The notes under the pieces are model-generated. The model searched no databases and was not told where the DNA came from. It was given only the letters and a program-made list of their open reading frames with translations. This document shows positions 2,891 to 64,000 of a stretch of DNA of 64,000 nt, in pieces. Origin of the DNA: Sphingorhabdus sp. M41 (GTDB lineage Bacteria; Pseudomonadota; Alphaproteobacteria; Sphingomonadales; Sphingomonadaceae); assembly GCF_001586275.1 (NCBI RefSeq), contig NZ_CP014545.1, forward strand, positions 2,506,501-2,570,500. The letters run 5' to 3'. The position numbers and the translations under genes are program-made. The stretch's first letter is position 1. Each line of letters begins with the position of its first letter.

Positions 2891-2977
2891 GCGGACGTGG
2901 CGAAATGGTAGACGCAGCAGACTTAAAATCTGCTATCCGAAATGGGTGTGCGGGTTCGAGTCCCGCCGTCCGCACCA
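2891..2977 (+). tRNA. tRNA-Leu (UAA)
   Basis: An 87-nt cloverleaf: acceptor arms GCGGACG/CGTCCGC followed by encoded CCA, D-arm TGGCGAAATGGTAGACGC, anticodon stem GCAGA/TCTGC with loop CTTAAAA (anticodon TAA), a long class-II variable arm, and T-arm GCGGGTTCGAGTCCCGC. The long variable arm and the UAA anticodon identify leucine. Confidence 0.97.
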
Positions 2978-3074
2978 GTTTTAGAATCTCGGCCCTCTCA
3001 CCGACGAATTTGACCAAACTTCCCGGACGGCTGCGACGCACTATCCCGTCAAAACCATCATCGAGGCAAAATCC

Positions 3075-3548
3075 ATGCTTAGTCCTGTCATTATCGCAGC
3101 AGTCCTCTGGGCCATCATCCTCGCCGGTGCAGGCGGACTGTTAACCGACATCGGGCCTTGGTACCGGGAGCTCAAAAAACCCGCATGGCAACCGCCGGAC
3201 TGGCTGTTTGGACCGGCCTGGATGACGATACTAGGACTAGCGGCCTGGGCAGCTATCCTGTCATGGGAGCAAGCCGGCAGCGAATCCGAGCAAGCCCTGC
3301 TGATCGCCGCCTATGGAACAAATTTCCTGTTTCACCTGCTCTGGTCGCCGCTGTTTTTCAAATATCAGCGACCCGATTGGGCGTTGGTCGAGGTTGTATT
3401 TCTGTGGCTTTCGGTCACCGCAATGCTGGCTTTGACATGGAGCCTCGACTCGCTGGCGGGCATCCTGATCCTGCCCTATTTCCTGTGGGTCTCCTTTGCC
3501 GCCTTGCTCAATGCAAAGATTGTGCAGCTAAACCGTCCCTTTGGCTAG
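3075..3548 (+). CDS. tspO: TspO/MBR family tryptophan-rich sensory protein
   Basis: TspO proteins are five-helix membrane proteins that bind porphyrins and cholesterol-like ligands; in alphaproteobacteria they modulate tetrapyrrole and oxygen responses. This 157-residue protein has the usual length, about five hydrophobic segments, and the conserved region KKPAWQPPDWLFGPAW after the first helix. The later NFLFHLLWSPLFF segment and the ALVEV stretch also fit the family. It stands alone between the tRNA and a convergent flavoprotein gene. Family membership is clear; the ligand is not known from sequence. Confidence 0.9.
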   Translation: MLSPVIIAAVLWAIILAGAGGLLTDIGPWYRELKKPAWQPPDWLFGPAWMTILGLAAWAAILSWEQAGSESEQALLIAAYGTNFLFHLLWSPLFFKYQRPDWALVEVVFLWLSVTAMLALTWSLDSLAGILILPYFLWVSFAALLNAKIVQLNRPFG

Positions 3549-3551
3549 TCG

Positions 3552-4733
3552 CTACAACATCGCCATATCCACTGGCTGGTCCAGCAGAACCCGACCAGCC
3601 AGTTCGAACACTGCCGGCGCGGTAGCGATATGCTGAGTGGCAACATGGGCATCGCGGAAACGGCGTTGCAGGCTATTGTCCGAATAGACCGCGCTGCCGC
3701 CGCCCAATGTATAGGCGGTCTTGCAGGTTTCAGCAGATATTTCGGTGGCATGGGCACAAGCCAGACGCAGATTGGCACGGCCTTTGGCGGAGATTTCTCC
3801 GGAACCCTGGGCTTCTTCCCAGCATTTGCTGACGGCATTTTCCAGAAAGCTGAAAGCGCCTCCCAGCAGTGCCGTCGCGCGCGCCAGTTCGGCCTGTACG
3901 GTCGCCCGCTGCGCCATTGATCGACCGCCGCCGGGTGTTTTCTTGTTGATCGCGATCATCCTGATTTCTTCGAGCGCGGCCCAGGCATTGCCCAGGGCAA
4001 CCGAAGATACGCCGAGCGCGAGCAAGCCAAAGAGCGGGAATTTATACAAAGCGCCCGGATCGCGCGGCTGGTCGCCAACAAAAGACACGCTACGGTCCTT
4101 GGGAACTTTCAAATTCTCGACCGAAAAATCTCCGGAACCCGTGCCTTTCAGCCCTGCAACATGCCAGCTGTCGATGAATGACACGTCTTTCGCCGGGAAG
4201 AACAGCATCCGGTGATAAGGGGCACCATTGTCGAATTTCTGCAGCTCGCCATTCTTGAAGATCATCGCACCGCCGCCGAGCCAGGAACAATTGGCCGAGC
4301 CGGAGCCCCATTGCCACTGGCCGCTGAGCAGATAATGATCGCCCTTGTCCTCGGCCTTGCCCATCGGCGCGAAAACACCGCCGGTGACAACATCGTCCGC
4401 GCCGAAAATTTCCCGCGCAGCCGGTTCCGGCATATAGGCCGCGCCCAAGGTAGAGGTAACCGCAATCATCACGCACCAGCCAGCACTGGCATCCGCTTCG
4501 GCAGTCGTGGCGACGATTTTCATGAAGTCGAGAGGCTCCAGCTCCAACCCGCCGAGCGATGCCGGTTTCGACAGATTGAACGCCCCCGCTTCCGCCAGCT
4601 TTGCCGCTAGATCAGCGGGCAAACGCCGTGCTTTCTCGGTTTCTTCTGCTCGAGCGGCAATTTCGGGAAGCAGAGCCAGAACTCTGGGACCGACCTCACC
4701 GATCGTGGAAATATCATATTGTAAACCGGTCAT
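3552..4733 (-). CDS. Acyl-CoA dehydrogenase superfamily flavoprotein (monooxygenase-like)
   Basis: This 393-residue protein has the three-domain acyl-CoA dehydrogenase fold: an N-terminal helical domain (LPEIAARAEETEKARRLP), a central beta domain (WQWGSGSANCSWLGGGA; VAGLKGTGSGDFSVENL) and a C-terminal helical domain. The C-terminal part resembles the class that includes DszC, HsaA and HpaB-type FMNH2-dependent oxygenases rather than true dehydrogenases. The start at 4733 (MTGLQYDIS) was preferred over 4799 because GAGGAG lies 8 nt upstream. It converges on tspO with a 3-nt gap. The substrate cannot be told. No partner flavin reductase gene is nearby. Confidence 0.75.
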   Translation of the reverse strand: MTGLQYDISTIGEVGPRVLALLPEIAARAEETEKARRLPADLAAKLAEAGAFNLSKPASLGGLELEPLDFMKIVATTAEADASAGWCVMIAVTSTLGAAYMPEPAAREIFGADDVVTGGVFAPMGKAEDKGDHYLLSGQWQWGSGSANCSWLGGGAMIFKNGELQKFDNGAPYHRMLFFPAKDVSFIDSWHVAGLKGTGSGDFSVENLKVPKDRSVSFVGDQPRDPGALYKFPLFGLLALGVSSVALGNAWAALEEIRMIAINKKTPGGGRSMAQRATVQAELARATALLGGAFSFLENAVSKCWEEAQGSGEISAKGRANLRLACAHATEISAETCKTAYTLGGGSAVYSDNSLQRRFRDAHVATQHIATAPAVFELAGRVLLDQPVDMAML

Positions 4734-4812
4734 CCAGAAATTCTCCTCAGCAAAGGAAACAAGCACACGAGTTCCCCTTTGTCGAGCCAGCAAAAACATC
4801 TAGACGAGGGAC

Positions 4813-6354
4813 ATGCGTTATCCCGTTCTTCTTTCCGCGATCCTGATGCTGCTATCCTGCACCAACGATCCGGCTATTGATACGGTACCTGGCCCGGCGC
4901 AAATCGTCCGCCTTTCCGATTCGGAGATAAAGGGACTGGACCCGCAAAAAGTCTCCGATCTCTCTTCGCTCCGCGTGGCCGCTGACCAGTTCGAGGGCCT
5001 GACCCGGCTCGATGCCAAAGGGAATGCGGAGCCAGGGCTGGCCCATGACTGGAAAATCTCGTCCGACGGACTGATCTGGACTTTTGCCTTACGGAATGAT
5101 TTGCGCTTCTCCGATGGCACAGCTTTTGATGCGACGCTATTCCCCGCCCTGCTGGACCGTTTGCGCGCGCTGGAAACCGCTGCGGCCGCAAAGGCTCTGT
5201 TCGGCAATATTGTGACTGTAGAAGCGCCCAGCGGGAATAGCGTGATCATCACCCTCGCCTCTCCCGACCCGTCCCTGCCCGCCTTGCTGGCGCATCCGGC
5301 AATGGCTGCCCTTCCGCTCCACCGGATCAGCGAAGCCGGCGACAAATGGACCTCCGACAGGCCGATGATTGTGAGCGGACCTTATCGATTGTCCGAATGG
5401 AAACTGAACGATCACGCCCGGCTGGACCGCAATCCCGCGTGGCACGACGAAGCGGCACCAACCAAGACCGTCATCTGGAAACCGATGGATGAAAGTCTCT
5501 CGGCAATGCGCCTGTTCCTGTCCGGTGGTGCTGATATCGCCGCGGATTATCCCGCAAGCCGCCATCAATGGCTGAAACAGAACCACCCGGATCTCGCACA
5601 TAGCGTGCCCTATCTCGGCAGCTATTATTTTGCCTTCAACACCCGCACCCCTCCCTTTGACGACCGCAGGGTCCGGACAGCCCTGTCCATGGCGGTCGAA
5701 CGCGAGTGGATCGCCGACAAGGTGATTGGCATTGGCAATATCCCGGCATGGGGGTTGCTGCCGCCAGGACTGGCTGGCCCGGCATCGGCAAAGCCCGAAT
5801 GGGCGGACTGGCCCCGGGACAAGCGCCTGCAAAGCGCGCGCGCATTGCTCGAAGCCGCCGGCTATGACGCAAAACATCCCTTGCGGTTCGAAATCCGGTT
5901 CAACAGTTCCGCCGAACATCGCCGGGTGGCCGTTGCAATGGCCGCAATGTGGAAACCGCTGGCGGTGGAAGCCAGCCTGTTCAACAGCGAGGCCGCATTG
6001 CATTTTGCCGCCCTGCGTCAGCATGAATTTGCATTGTCCCGCTCCGGCTGGATTGCCGATCTGCCGACACCGGAAAATTTCCTGCTGGTCCACCAGCAGG
6101 CCAATGGCGGCGGAAATTATTCAGGCCATGACAATCCGGACTATGACCGGGTTTTAGCGCGCGCAATCGCCGAGCCCGACCCTGCCAAACGCCAGATATT
6201 GATGCGGCAGGCGGAAGCGATCCTGATCGCCGACATGCCAATCCTGCCCCTCTATTTTTACGTTACCCGCAGCCTGGTGGCGAAGCGCATTGCCGGATGG
6301 GAAGATAATATTTCCAATGTGCATCCCAGTCGCACTCTGCGTATAAGGCCGTGA
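4813..6354 (+). CDS. Peptide-type ABC transporter solute-binding lipoprotein (SBP family 5)
   Basis: A 513-residue family 5 extracellular solute-binding protein, related to DppA/OppA. The N-terminus is a lipoprotein signal ending in LLSC with the lipidated cysteine at residue 16. Family features include LSDSEIKGLDPQ near the N-terminus, GLAHDWKISSDGLIWTFALR, and FDDRRVRTALSMAVERE. Such proteins normally deliver peptides or similar solutes to a permease in the inner membrane. No permease or ATPase genes adjoin it; the only partner is the paralogue-like gene that overlaps its stop codon. Cargo is unknown. Confidence 0.85.
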   Translation: MRYPVLLSAILMLLSCTNDPAIDTVPGPAQIVRLSDSEIKGLDPQKVSDLSSLRVAADQFEGLTRLDAKGNAEPGLAHDWKISSDGLIWTFALRNDLRFSDGTAFDATLFPALLDRLRALETAAAAKALFGNIVTVEAPSGNSVIITLASPDPSLPALLAHPAMAALPLHRISEAGDKWTSDRPMIVSGPYRLSEWKLNDHARLDRNPAWHDEAAPTKTVIWKPMDESLSAMRLFLSGGADIAADYPASRHQWLKQNHPDLAHSVPYLGSYYFAFNTRTPPFDDRRVRTALSMAVEREWIADKVIGIGNIPAWGLLPPGLAGPASAKPEWADWPRDKRLQSARALLEAAGYDAKHPLRFEIRFNSSAEHRRVAVAMAAMWKPLAVEASLFNSEAALHFAALRQHEFALSRSGWIADLPTPENFLLVHQQANGGGNYSGHDNPDYDRVLARAIAEPDPAKRQILMRQAEAILIADMPILPLYFYVTRSLVAKRIAGWEDNISNVHPSRTLRIRP

Positions 6355-59983: not shown

Positions 59984-60946
59984 TCAATAAACCCAGTTCA
60001 GCACAATCAGATAAACCGCCGACAGCACAATCCAGGTCCCGTCCAGCGTCTTGAGCTTTCTCGCGCCCAGCCACAGCGCGATCGGACGGGCCAGAAAGCC
60101 GCCCAGCACCGCACCCGGCCCTGCCAGCAGCACGATCTCCCACGATATTGTCCCGATCTGAATATGCCAGATGCTGCCCACCAGCACGCTAACCGATGAA
60201 ATGACGCAGGCGGTGCCGGTGCACAGCAGCACCGGATAGTGGCGGATGAACAAATAGAGCGCGACCAGCTCGCCGATGCCGACCGAGAAGAGCGCGGTGA
60301 GCGCGCCGCCGGGGATCGCGATGAGCAGCAGGACCACTATGTCGACCTTCTCCAGCCGCGCGCGTTCCGGCCGGTTGTGATTGATCGTCCAGGTGGTGAT
60401 GATCAGCGCGAGGCCGAGAAAAATGGAAAAAATCTTGTAGCCAAGCAGGACAAGATGCCCGTCGACCATGGTCAGCCGCTGCATCGCCAGCATCGCCGGC
60501 AGTGACACAGCGAGCACGGCCCCGATGACCATGGCAAAATCGCGCGGCCGGACCCGGACATAGCCCGCGCCAGCCGCGCCAGCGACCGCCGCAACCGGCT
60601 GGTGCAGCAGGCGATCGGTCCAGCGCAGCCCGCCCATGGTCATGCCGAAACATTGAATGGCCATCGACGCGGCGGTAACCCGCAGCGGATCGAGCGCCAT
60701 GACCCCGTGCTCGCGCAGCCCGTTGAACACCGGCACAAACACCACCCCGCCCCCGGTCCCCGACGTATTGGCAATCACCGCCGCCAGCGCCCCGATGCCG
60801 GGCAGAAACCAGAGCTGACCCAGCAGAGCGGGATCATAAGAGGCAAACAGCAAGATGCCGGCATAAAGCGCGAGCAGGACGGCAGCGCCCCAGATTACGA
60901 GACGGCCTTGCGCCGGTGCTGTGAATCGACGGGGGGGATTGGTCAT
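59984..60946 (-). CDS. TauE/SafE family permease
   Basis: A 320-residue membrane protein with eight to nine hydrophobic segments. The first repeat has GIGALAAVIANTSGTGGGVVFVP and the second AIPGGALTALFSVGIGELVALYLF, the usual TauE/SafE duplicated pattern (here in outline). The family exports sulfite, sulfoacetate or other organosulfur anions. Substrate unknown. It stands alone. Confidence 0.88.
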   Translation of the reverse strand: MTNPPRRFTAPAQGRLVIWGAAVLLALYAGILLFASYDPALLGQLWFLPGIGALAAVIANTSGTGGGVVFVPVFNGLREHGVMALDPLRVTAASMAIQCFGMTMGGLRWTDRLLHQPVAAVAGAAGAGYVRVRPRDFAMVIGAVLAVSLPAMLAMQRLTMVDGHLVLLGYKIFSIFLGLALIITTWTINHNRPERARLEKVDIVVLLLIAIPGGALTALFSVGIGELVALYLFIRHYPVLLCTGTACVISSVSVLVGSIWHIQIGTISWEIVLLAGPGAVLGGFLARPIALWLGARKLKTLDGTWIVLSAVYLIVLNWVY

Positions 60947-61371
60947 GATTTTCCGTTGGCCAAAGGCGGGGTGCGATGCAAGAGGTAATCGGGTGGGGGT
61001 GGAGAGGTTTCCCGATTAGGAACAGTGGGTTGTGGGGTTTTTGGGGACGGGCTTTCCCGTTATTTTTCTGGGGGACTGCAAGCCGGTGACAGCGCGCCAT
61101 CAAAATCCGGCCCTTCACCTACTCTCATTCATTAGACTCGCACACCAACAAAACCGTCATCCCGGCGAAGGCCGGGATCCAGACCACATTTCCGTTTGCG
61201 AAGTACGCCGGGTTAGGTTGTTCGACTTAAGAACGCACTCGTGAAGATGTCAAAACCTCTGACATGCGCCAGAGTGACTGGATAATGGAGAGAGGTTGAA
61301 ATTGCGTGCAGTGTCGCTGTAATCCTTCCTTATCGATAACAATATTGTTGTAACTCTTTAGTTCTGGACTA
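60947..61371. other. Gene-free boundary before the ham genes
   Basis: Apart from a palindromic half-element at 61155-61183, I see no gene here. After ~61250 the sequence becomes AT-richer, which marks the left edge of the block that carries hamA and hamB. No tRNA or att-like direct repeat is visible. Confidence 0.6.
61155..61183. repeat. Palindromic half-element, family B
   Basis: CGTCATCCCGGCGAAGGCCG followed by GGATCCAGA forms one hairpin of the family; a decayed second half (CGCCGGGTTAGG) lies ~25 bp further. Confidence 0.75.
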
Positions 61372-62346
61372 ATGTCCCTATACATCAATGGAGATCGTTC
61401 CCTGCCTGAATTTACGTCAGATGATTTAGAGGGCGTCCTGTCGGGCGATCCAGATGAGCTTGACGTTCATTTGGTTGCAATTGACCAAGATATTGAAATC
61501 GACGGGTTGGCAATCAAAATTCACTGCCATTGCTTAACGGTGGACGGGAATAGCCGCATCCGCGTCGAACGTTTGATAGAATTCATGCGCCACGCAATTG
61601 TCGACTATGCGATTCCAAAAAGTAAACTCAAAGAAGCGCAAGAGAGGGACGCAAAGTACAATTCTGGAAGCGCGGTAGCTGCGCTTCATCATCAAGCAAT
61701 GGGCACATTTACAGACTTGAATAATACCGGAGAAGGTGGAGAAATGCTTCTTTTCCTCCTTGCAGAACGGTTTCTAAAACTACCGCAAGTGCTCTCCAAA
61801 ATGGATTTAAAGACGGATTCTCGCGTTCATTATCACGGCGCAGATGGTGTCTATGCAGGTGTTGATGACGATGGTCTTTTGAAACTGTATTGGGGTGAAT
61901 CCAAAGTTTATGGTGGGGCCTCAGACGCTATCCGCGATTGCCTTGCATCTTTGGCCCTTTTCTTGACAGAAACTGATCATGAAGGTTCCTCCAGAGAGCG
62001 TGATTTGGTGCTGTTAAGTGACAAAGCTGATCTGAATGACCCAGCACTGACTGCTGCATTTAAAAAGTATTTTGATAAAACGACCGCGCTTTCAAATCGG
62101 GTTCAATATTGTGGGGTTGCACTTGTCGGATTTGACGCAGGCTTTTATCCTGCAAACGACACAAAAGCTGTTGCTGAGGAAATTTCTAACGCTGCCAAGG
62201 CGGAAATAGAAAACTGGGTCAAACAAATCAGAAATCGAATATCGGTCGAGAAATTAGAAAGATTTCATATTGAATTTTTCTGTGTGCCCATCCCATCGGC
62301 AGATGGTTTCCGATCTGCACTATTAAAAGCATTGGGACACCGCTGA
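61372..62346 (+). CDS. hamA: Hachiman anti-phage system protein HamA (DUF1837 nuclease)
   Basis: A 324-residue DUF1837 protein, the HamA component of Hachiman. HamA is a PD-(D/E)xK-type DNase that is held by HamB and released when HamB senses damaged or phage DNA. Candidate active-site residues are E121/E124 in NTGEGGEMLLFLLAERF, D158 in YHGADGVYAG and E176-x-K178 in LYWGESKVYGG. The stop overlaps the hamB ATG (TGATG), so both are co-translated. Codon use and AT content differ from the core genes. The start ATG at 61372 has no strong Shine-Dalgarno. Confidence 0.85.
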   Translation: MSLYINGDRSLPEFTSDDLEGVLSGDPDELDVHLVAIDQDIEIDGLAIKIHCHCLTVDGNSRIRVERLIEFMRHAIVDYAIPKSKLKEAQERDAKYNSGSAVAALHHQAMGTFTDLNNTGEGGEMLLFLLAERFLKLPQVLSKMDLKTDSRVHYHGADGVYAGVDDDGLLKLYWGESKVYGGASDAIRDCLASLALFLTETDHEGSSRERDLVLLSDKADLNDPALTAAFKKYFDKTTALSNRVQYCGVALVGFDAGFYPANDTKAVAEEISNAAKAEIENWVKQIRNRISVEKLERFHIEFFCVPIPSADGFRSALLKALGHR

Positions 62347-64000
62347 TGTCGCTGCCAGATTTACAAAATTGGTTGGTCAACGAAGGCATCAACGCTGATT
62401 TGATCAAACTCATAAAAATGACTGCCGCTGCTGAGCTAGACAATGTGAATACGGAATTCGACATTGCCGCTGAAACCAACAACGTTGATTGGCAGCAGCT
62501 ACTACTAGCTAGTAGCATTTTAGCACGTTCAGAGAAACGTGATCAACAAGAAGCCGCGCTGCGCATCGCGACCGCTGCCATGACTCTGGAAACGCCACCT
62601 CAGATCCGCGATGCAGCGGCGGTAGTGTTTGAGAAATTATCGAATCGACGTGCAGTACAGCTTGCCGAACAACGAGGATATTTGGAACCAAACCTAGAGG
62701 ACAGACTGGGAGTATCGATGAGATTAGAGGCATCCCGCCGCGATGCAACACAAGCGATATTGGTTCAATCGGCGGGAGAATGGCTGCCGGTGAATGACTT
62801 TCAAAGCGAGTTCTGGGAAAAAGCAGGCCAGAAGGGTAGCTGGCTCTCTGCATCTGCTCCTACAGCGTCCGGCAAGACTTTCCTAGTACTGCAGTGGGTC
62901 GTTGATCAAATGCGTGTCGGTCTAGCGCAGATCACAATTTATTTAGCACCAACTCGAGCGCTGGTGACGGAAATTGAAGATAGCTTGCGGGAAATCCTCT
63001 CGCAGTCAGATAACATTGAAATAACTTCACTCCCCTTGGCTGATAAATATACTGCCGCGATAAAAGAAGGCCGCAAACTAATTTTTGTTTTCACTCAAGA
63101 GAGACTTCATCTTTTAGCAAATATGCTTGAGAATAAATTGACGTTAGACTTGTTAGTGGTGGACGAGGCTCATAAAATCGGAGACCATCAAAGAGGGGTC
63201 ATTCTACAAGACGCAATAGAAAGAGTTTCAAGAAATAATCTCGAATTGAAGATTGTATTTGTTAGTCCAGCAACTCAGAATCCCGGTGAACTTTTAGACG
63301 ATGCGCCTGCAAACATCACTCCGCTATCAGTTGATAGCGACAAGCCAATGGTTTTGCAGAACATTATTGTAGCAGAGCAAGTTCCTCGGAAGCCAAAAGA
63401 ATGGAATCTGACACTTCGGACGGGTCACAAAGAGCATGATATTGGAAGACTTCAACTAGGTAGCTCTCCTGCAGGCTTGCGCAAGCGGTTGGCTTTTATT
63501 GCTGCTGCTGCGGGACAAAGAGGCGGCACCTTAGTTTATACTAACGGTGCAGCAGAAGCAGAACAGGTCGCAATGCTGGTGAAACAAGTCTTGCCGAAAG
63601 AAAGCGAGATTGACCCAGAATTAGCCGCACTAGCAGACTTGGCCCGAAAAGGAGTTCACCGCAAGTATCAGCTCGCTCCTTTAGTAGAAAGTGGAGTTGC
63701 GTTCCACTATGGTAACATGCCATCGTTAATACGGATGGAAATAGAACGCCTATTTAGAATGGGGAAAATTCGATTTCTTGTATGTACTTCGACTCTAATC
63801 GAAGGTGTCAATCTTTCGTGTCGTACAATCGTACTTCGTGGTCCACGAAAAGGGCGAGGAAAACCGATGGAACCGCACGACTTCTGGAATCTAGCTGGTC
63901 GTGCTGGCCGCTGGGGAAATGAATTCCAAGGTAATATTTTGTGCATAGATCCAATTGACAAAACCGCTTGGCCTAGTGGTGTACCCGCCCGCGCAAGATA
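62346..64000 (+). CDS. hamB: Hachiman helicase HamB, 5' part (runs off the window)
   Basis: The frame is open from the ATG at 62346 to the window end, 551 codons. It encodes a superfamily 2 helicase. Walker A is SAPTASGKTF (Lys ~177), motif Ia YLAPTRALV, motif II VVDEAHKIG (DEAH, ~273-276), a motif III-like SPAT, motif IV TLVYTNGAAEAEQ, motif V VCTSTLIEGVNLSCRTIVLR and motif VI NLAGRAGRWG. Motifs V and VI are of the Ski2-like kind found in HamB. The first ~160 residues form a helical domain. Coupling to hamA (one-base overlap) supports the assignment. The C-terminal part is missing from the window. Confidence 0.88.
   Translation, partial: MSLPDLQNWLVNEGINADLIKLIKMTAAAELDNVNTEFDIAAETNNVDWQQLLLASSILARSEKRDQQEAALRIATAAMTLETPPQIRDAAAVVFEKLSNRRAVQLAEQRGYLEPNLEDRLGVSMRLEASRRDATQAILVQSAGEWLPVNDFQSEFWEKAGQKGSWLSASAPTASGKTFLVLQWVVDQMRVGLAQITIYLAPTRALVTEIEDSLREILSQSDNIEITSLPLADKYTAAIKEGRKLIFVFTQERLHLLANMLENKLTLDLLVVDEAHKIGDHQRGVILQDAIERVSRNNLELKIVFVSPATQNPGELLDDAPANITPLSVDSDKPMVLQNIIVAEQVPRKPKEWNLTLRTGHKEHDIGRLQLGSSPAGLRKRLAFIAAAAGQRGGTLVYTNGAAEAEQVAMLVKQVLPKESEIDPELAALADLARKGVHRKYQLAPLVESGVAFHYGNMPSLIRMEIERLFRMGKIRFLVCTSTLIEGVNLSCRTIVLRGPRKGRGKPMEPHDFWNLAGRAGRWGNEFQGNILCIDPIDKTAWPSGVPARAR

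Follow-up and report, generated by a model that had tools for sequence, protein, structure and literature searches.

In Escherichia coli ECOR31, the Hachiman pair HamAB has been shown to act as a surveillance complex in which HamB surveys double-stranded DNA and restrains HamA, until a free 3' single strand leads to ATP hydrolysis and HamA becomes active and clears all DNA (main text of PMC12278908). The authors of PADLOC assigned HamAB accompanied by a DUF3223 gene, upstream or downstream, to Hachiman type II, which makes up about 3.8% of Hachiman systems, and the type II system of Sphingopyxis witflariensis DSM 14551 lowers phage plating in E. coli (both PMC8565338). The Hachiman structural work consulted deals with HamAB only (PMC12278908), and a search of its main text returned no mention of HamC or DUF3223. 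HamC has been named since 2021, though no function for it was found in the literature searched.

The DNA analyzed here, referred to as the window, is a 64-kb stretch of Sphingorhabdus sp. M41 corresponding to positions 2506501-2570500 of a single closed contig of 3,339,521 bases (3.34 Mb). Around its right edge the gene order is topoIB (-), tauE (-), hamA-hamB-hamC (+) and pabB (-), with the third ham gene lying outside the window, so that it is invisible from the window letters. The locus is almost certainly a complete Hachiman type II (hamABC) antiphage operon, horizontally acquired, at a chromosomal tauE-pabB site, and was assigned to type II because hamAB is accompanied by the DUF3223 gene hamC. 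As a locus it is ordinary, a further example of a published and plaque-tested subtype, and its interest lies in HamC more than in the operon itself.

The three genes of the operon

From the window letters, the first-pass annotation had called a Hachiman HamAB locus composed of a DUF1837 protein with nuclease-like residues and a Ski2-like DEAH helicase overlapping it by one base. PADLOC and Pfam family matches, intact frames and a match in fold between HamA and solved HamA all bear out this call, and on reading the sequence all three ham frames are full length with catalytic motifs present.

The first gene, hamA (61372-62346, + strand), encodes a 324-aa predicted effector nuclease with the putative active site D158...GE176-S-K178. 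Its single Pfam domain matches HamA (PF08878, formerly DUF1837) with an E-value of 1.2e-62 and 212 bits against a cut-off of 25 bits, and the PADLOC models HamA1 and HamA2 score 475.6 and 472.1 bits. The D-GExK residues D158 and G175-E176-S177-K178 (here D-GESK) were invariant in 34 of 34 aligned HamA sequences, and D-GEXK is named as required for HamA activity in PMC12799240. Searching the PDB by sequence with this HamA gave no match, and a HamA family profile did not recover the solved HamA chains there, returning only chance-level matches to transcription factors. The AlphaFold model (mean pLDDT 74.5) matched solved HamA with Z scores of 18.4 (8zue_A) and 13.6 (8vx9_A), the next unrelated chain scoring 4.9, and the structural alignment with solved E. 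coli HamA showed an identity of about 10-11%. The structural comparison settled the identification of HamA with the solved chains.

The stop codon of hamA and the start codon of hamB share one base (62346) in the junction TGATG. The first 551 codons of hamB, which encodes a Ski2-like SF2 helicase, lie in the window (62346-64000, + strand), where the 3' end is open, and the gene continues to the equivalent of 64949. Followed rightward into the genome, the frame reaches 867 aa with no stop or frameshift, and the PADLOC HamB2 model covers the C-terminus (1348.4 bits over 1-861 of 865 model positions), so neither the broken frame nor the foreign helicase C-terminus considered at first pass was found. 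The motifs SAPTASGKT, DEAH (residues 273-276) and AGRAGRWG were recognized in HamB by sequence. As a separate observation, the best PDB sequence match of HamB was 9wh1_B, an 853-aa chain named DNA polymerase theta (helicase domain only); the match spans the helicase core (1e-39), and the chain may be a wrongly named HamB-like protein from a bacterium.

The third gene, hamC, starts 28 nt past the hamB stop on the + strand, at the equivalent of 64978-65286 (L002:8978-9286, where window position equals L002 position + 56000), and encodes a 102-aa DUF3223 protein. It matches PF11523 (DUF3223) with an E-value of 5.7e-21 and PADLOC HamC2 with 139.2 bits, and consists of DUF3223 alone, with no C-terminal HNH-like domain. 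Sequence searches matched Rhodospirillum rubrum 2K0M (4e-30), and a structural model of the S. witflariensis HamC matched the same structure with a TM score of 0.85. A plain sequence search also matched HamC to the C-terminal domain of the largest subunit of plant RNA polymerase IV (3e-10), which ties a protein of bacterial phage defence to the polymerases of plant silencing.

The tauE-pabB site in this and related genomes

The insert between tauE and pabB measures 4.4 kb and has a GC content of 44.7%, compared with fractions of 0.526-0.625 in 2 kb windows covering 1-60000, in agreement with the shift in base composition noted at first pass. The low GC starts in the left flank (60947-61371), between the start of tauE (59984-60946, - strand) and hamA. 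Among 32 genomes from the genus, HamA was found in the present one alone and not in its 31 congeners. Because of this restriction the hamABC insert was probably acquired recently, and the base composition and the restriction together support acquisition.

A palindrome-bearing repeat, GTCATCCCGGCGAAGGCCGGGATCCA (61156-61181, + strand), lies about 190 bp before hamA and occurs at six places genome-wide at two mismatches or fewer, compared with none for the reversed control. A similar element seems present at the corresponding junction of the congener G022 (L061). Other repeats of the region were short chance-like pairs, no target-site duplication was identified at the insertion boundaries inspected, and the region around the operon (L002) held no tRNA.

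To the right, hamC is followed by pabB, then by a gene for a member of the prolyl-oligopeptidase family and, as judged by reading, genes of metabolism and housekeeping. The first-pass annotation had expected defence genes to cluster beyond the right edge. In the present genome this did not hold, since 40 kb further right contained no defence gene among open reading frames judged by reading alone; the idea survives in a weaker form for the congeners, whose tauE, pabB and topoIB junctions hold other defence-like or toxin-antitoxin cassettes. The tauE/pabB site looks like a small hotspot across strains and not an island in this genome. Five of the seven congeners viewed in detail have tauE as the neighbor of pabB, separated from it by 0.7 to 3.6 kb, and the other two (G022 and G002) have no tauE at the pabB junction.

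At the site of the Hachiman operon, the congener G019 carries a 3.6 kb insert of 42.2% GC (L060:3204-6467) that encodes a D12-class DNA methyltransferase together with a protein of 783 aa that resembles DndB/DpdB and weakly matches HEPN_Swt1, and this cassette looks like an undescribed modification-linked defence pair. In G016, of the same genus, three genes lie between tauE and topoIB, beside this hotspot (L064:5197-7365): one similar to SocA-Panacea antitoxins, one of unknown kind (231 aa) and a Fic gene. The G022 junction carries a HicB-like antitoxin.

DUF3223 proteins in Hachiman and other operons

A DUF3223 gene lies directly downstream of hamB and on the same strand in 48 of 48 loci with complete hamA and hamB, and as these loci were gathered through HamA similarity, the fixation speaks for relatives of the present HamA only. 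The count became 42 of 42 on removal of the present locus, the duplicate L066 and the rows found through HamC or DUF3223 (L123, L131, L144 and L146). A complete hamA-hamB pair was lacking in 12 of 47 relative loci. Contig ends lie at or near the limits of L087, L092, L116 and L119, and L120-L122 are fragments. The hamC gene is kept despite a broken or partial hamB in L081, L093 and L115; L098 and L099 have a truncated hamB and no hamC, and G448 and G778 carry a split hamB. Of 392 genomes across the order, 17 had HamA; HamC turned up in 7 of 396, and 3 genomes had both. Values of dN/dS for hamC lay between 0.00 and 0.14 in 11 of 12 close pairs, the remaining pair being without synonymous change, and this purifying selection is comparable to that on hamA and hamB.

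Two pairs of relatives were alike: a Sphingorhabdus MAG shares identical HamA and HamB with a Marinibacterium MAG (L104/L105), and those of a cyanobacterial MAG are close to those of Pseudomonas (L095/L091), a likeness that reflects either recent transfer or MAG contamination. On Agrobacterium/Rhizobium plasmids, an MBL-fold hydrolase gene was seen directly before a type II hamA of ordinary length (L157:1234-5889 and L131:663-2246). L157 also has a patatin-like gene before hamA, and neither locus showed an obvious protease fusion.

HamC is short, consisting of the DUF3223 domain alone, in 39 of the 48 loci, and long, about 245 aa with a C-terminal extension, in the remaining 9, which belong to Rhizobiaceae and Bartonella. 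In a tree of 80 DUF3223 domains, long HamC clusters with the long DUF3223 proteins found in other operons (support 97/81) and apart from the main body of short HamC. A single origin of all 53 Hachiman-linked DUF3223 domains was rejected (AU p 9.9e-62), and in the HamAB tree the long-form rows fall in two groups. Judged from these trees, HamC is replaced in place by a DUF3223 protein of another lineage; the DUF3223 alignment is short (98 columns) and several branches are long, so that the tree does not fix the exact number of swaps.

The long forms share the motif C-x2-[TS]-[GDN] ... x-x-D-H ... H, which we take to be HNH-like, an assignment made by eye. Pfam reported no HNH model in 10 of 10 long DUF3223 proteins, and a PDB profile search with the long forms gave a significant match to the DUF3223 part only. 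Of the 14 long forms that are not helicase-linked, 9 retain an intact D-H pair, against 0 of 11 helicase-linked ones (Fisher p 0.001, for rows that are related and not independent). Among the latter 11, nine are Hachiman proteins with D changed to N, S or C and two are PDC-M23B-linked with H changed to Y, so that the catalytic aspartate of the putative HNH motif is lost in all nine long HamC rows, L109 and L162 included. The long-form alignment comprised 18 forms, the degenerate L127, L154, L156, L148 and L128 having been kept out of it; these were restored in the D-H count, which excludes L164 (DUF3223 domain identical to that of L074) and L167 (frame not clean). The broken HNH-like part fits a putative effector made superfluous where HamA already cuts DNA.

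The domain also occurs behind other defence genes. In 14 other genomes obtained from DUF3223 searches, six loci were Hachiman, two of them with a broken hamB, and three had a known or candidate defence gene directly upstream: PDC-S06 in G236, an SMC/AAA ATPase in G1028 whose best PADLOC match was LmuB (88 bits), and IetAS in G377, where the DUF3223 match is weak. An AAA-like ATPase is divergent to the DUF3223 gene in G338, and the remaining four genomes show none. Among 21 plasmid records with DUF3223, seven were Hachiman (five of them assigned from where the two matches lie), two have the DUF3223 gene after an LmuB-like ATPase in an operon called, where annotated, ABC-three component, three have it after an SMC-like ATPase (near copies), and nine have no known defence gene directly upstream. 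Searches with the long forms added one pair with PDC-S06 and two loci in which a PDC-M23B helicase comes first, the second of these helicases being recognized by the HamB profile only. All of these neighbor counts are raw counts, not set against random genes. They suggest that the third protein may be a part common to other defence systems, and in the set of papers searched, PMC8565338 was the only source linking DUF3223 to defence.

Two of these arrangements are worth recording. ABC-three-component/LmuB-like operons on Ensifer and Agrobacterium plasmids (L124 and L125, about 2955-6300) have a short DUF3223 gene, close to HamC, as their last gene. On Rhizobiaceae plasmids (L165:982-5741 and L168), an unknown 286-aa protein is followed in a three-gene operon by a HamB-like PDC-M23B helicase of 1050 aa and a long DUF3223 protein in which tyrosine replaces the histidine of the HNH-like motif, a layout that resembles Hachiman type II with an unrecognized first gene. 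A viral origin was considered and rejected, as viral contigs yielded no relative of HamA or of the long DUF3223 protein L129, and a phage-borne source was not supported by the single DUF3223-bearing record among 50,697 phage records.

Proposed role of HamC and comparison with known systems

On the basis of homology and intact active sites, the E. coli HamAB mechanism would most likely hold for the present locus, a transfer that spans a wide distance, given the low identity of HamA and a family profile that misses the solved chains by sequence. HamB, as a Ski2-like helicase, would keep the nuclease HamA switched off as long as it surveys intact DNA. The trigger would be a free 3' end of single-stranded DNA, arising from phage replication, recombination or damage; this would drive ATP hydrolysis and activate HamA, which would then destroy phage and host DNA in an abortive infection. 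HamC would be a third, obligate-looking subunit, a DUF3223 adaptor docking on the sensor helicase or its DNA and setting the threshold or specificity of HamA activation. We infer that HamC is an adaptor that tunes activation and not a second nuclease. HamC could also be dispensable for defence, since the published mechanism needs only HamAB.

In its general form, the adaptor reading is one that we put forward tentatively, as possible rather than probable. DUF3223 may be an interchangeable antiphage adaptor behind unrelated DNA-sensing ATPases, namely the Ski2 helicases HamB and PDC-M23B, Lamassu-type SMC proteins, PDC-S06 (AAA_13), SbcC-like proteins and possibly IetAS. Its intact form would carry its own C-terminal HNH-like effector, which would be broken or gone where, as in Hachiman, the operon already has a nuclease, leaving the adaptor alone. 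A relative of the domain ends the largest subunits of the plant silencing polymerases Pol IV/V.

Somewhat less likely still is that HamC acts as a brake or immunity factor that holds the HamA nuclease off in uninfected cells. Such a role would explain why every clade locus retains HamC, and it agrees with the strict co-occurrence (48/48), with purifying selection on hamC and with the mild toxicity of ectopic HamAB in E. coli (main text of PMC12278908). The absence of hamC next to the truncated hamB of L098 and L099 is also expected if hamC is useless alone, but L081, L093 and L115 retain hamC with a broken or partial hamB. Moreover, type I systems manage without HamC, and DUF3223 genes accompany systems that have no HamA, which makes an antitoxin specific to HamA unlikely.

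It is improbable that HamC is a passenger with no defence role, moved by frequent horizontal transfer of one successful cassette. Identical or near-identical operons in distant hosts (L104/L105 and L095/L091) and a published mechanism that requires HamAB only (PMC12278908, main text) would agree with a passenger, but purifying selection on hamC is as strong as on hamA and hamB, and the refilling of its slot by DUF3223 of another lineage would be needless. That the locus is an inactive remnant at a chromosomal site is very improbable, for although some relatives carry an evidently damaged hamB (a split gene in G448 and G778, a truncated one in L098 and L099), the hamABC frames here are all full length with catalytic motifs.

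Returning to HamC as an adaptor, its fixation, its in-place swap and the occurrence of DUF3223 behind other ATPases together raise the question of whether DUF3223 binds the sensor ATPase and times the nuclease. If this is true, a part of several defence systems would be explained at once, and a domain also used by plants would gain a function.

Among known systems, S. witflariensis offers the nearest comparison. Its contig NZ_NISJ01000011.1 was recovered as a relative (L085) with a HamA 63% identical to the present one, and it has the same three genes in the same order, but the HamAB described here forms a branch outside the clade to which the tested system belongs. By sequence, the present locus appears close enough to this plaque-tested system to be trusted as Hachiman type II. 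E. coli HamAB (PDB 8vx9/8vxy and 8zue; PMC12278908) shares the HamA fold (Z 12-18), the D-GExK motif and the Ski2-like helicase, whereas the HamB described here has DEAH where the text of PMC12278908 gives DEGH, and is 867 aa long compared with 1174 for chain 8vx9_B.

Repeated acquisition of a common effector pair, accompanied by loss of the active site of HamA, has been reported for Hachiman and other systems (PMC12799240). In the Hachiman-like AbpAB, an extra N-terminal nuclease domain accompanies a dead HamA site, unlike the single-domain HamA of 324 aa with an intact D-GExK found here. In the nuclease-protease Hachiman HamMAB, a trypsin-like protease is fused to HamA, D-GExK is lost and an MBL nuclease lies upstream, whereas the present HamA has no protease and an intact D-GExK, and the gene before hamA is tauE on the opposite strand. 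Finally, HamC resembles R. rubrum 2K0M and the DUF3223/DeCL domain of plant Pol IV subunit 1 in sequence, and the S. witflariensis HamC model resembles 2K0M in fold, but the plant DeCL domain of Pol IV/V forms the C-terminal part of a large polymerase subunit, unlike the stand-alone HamC.
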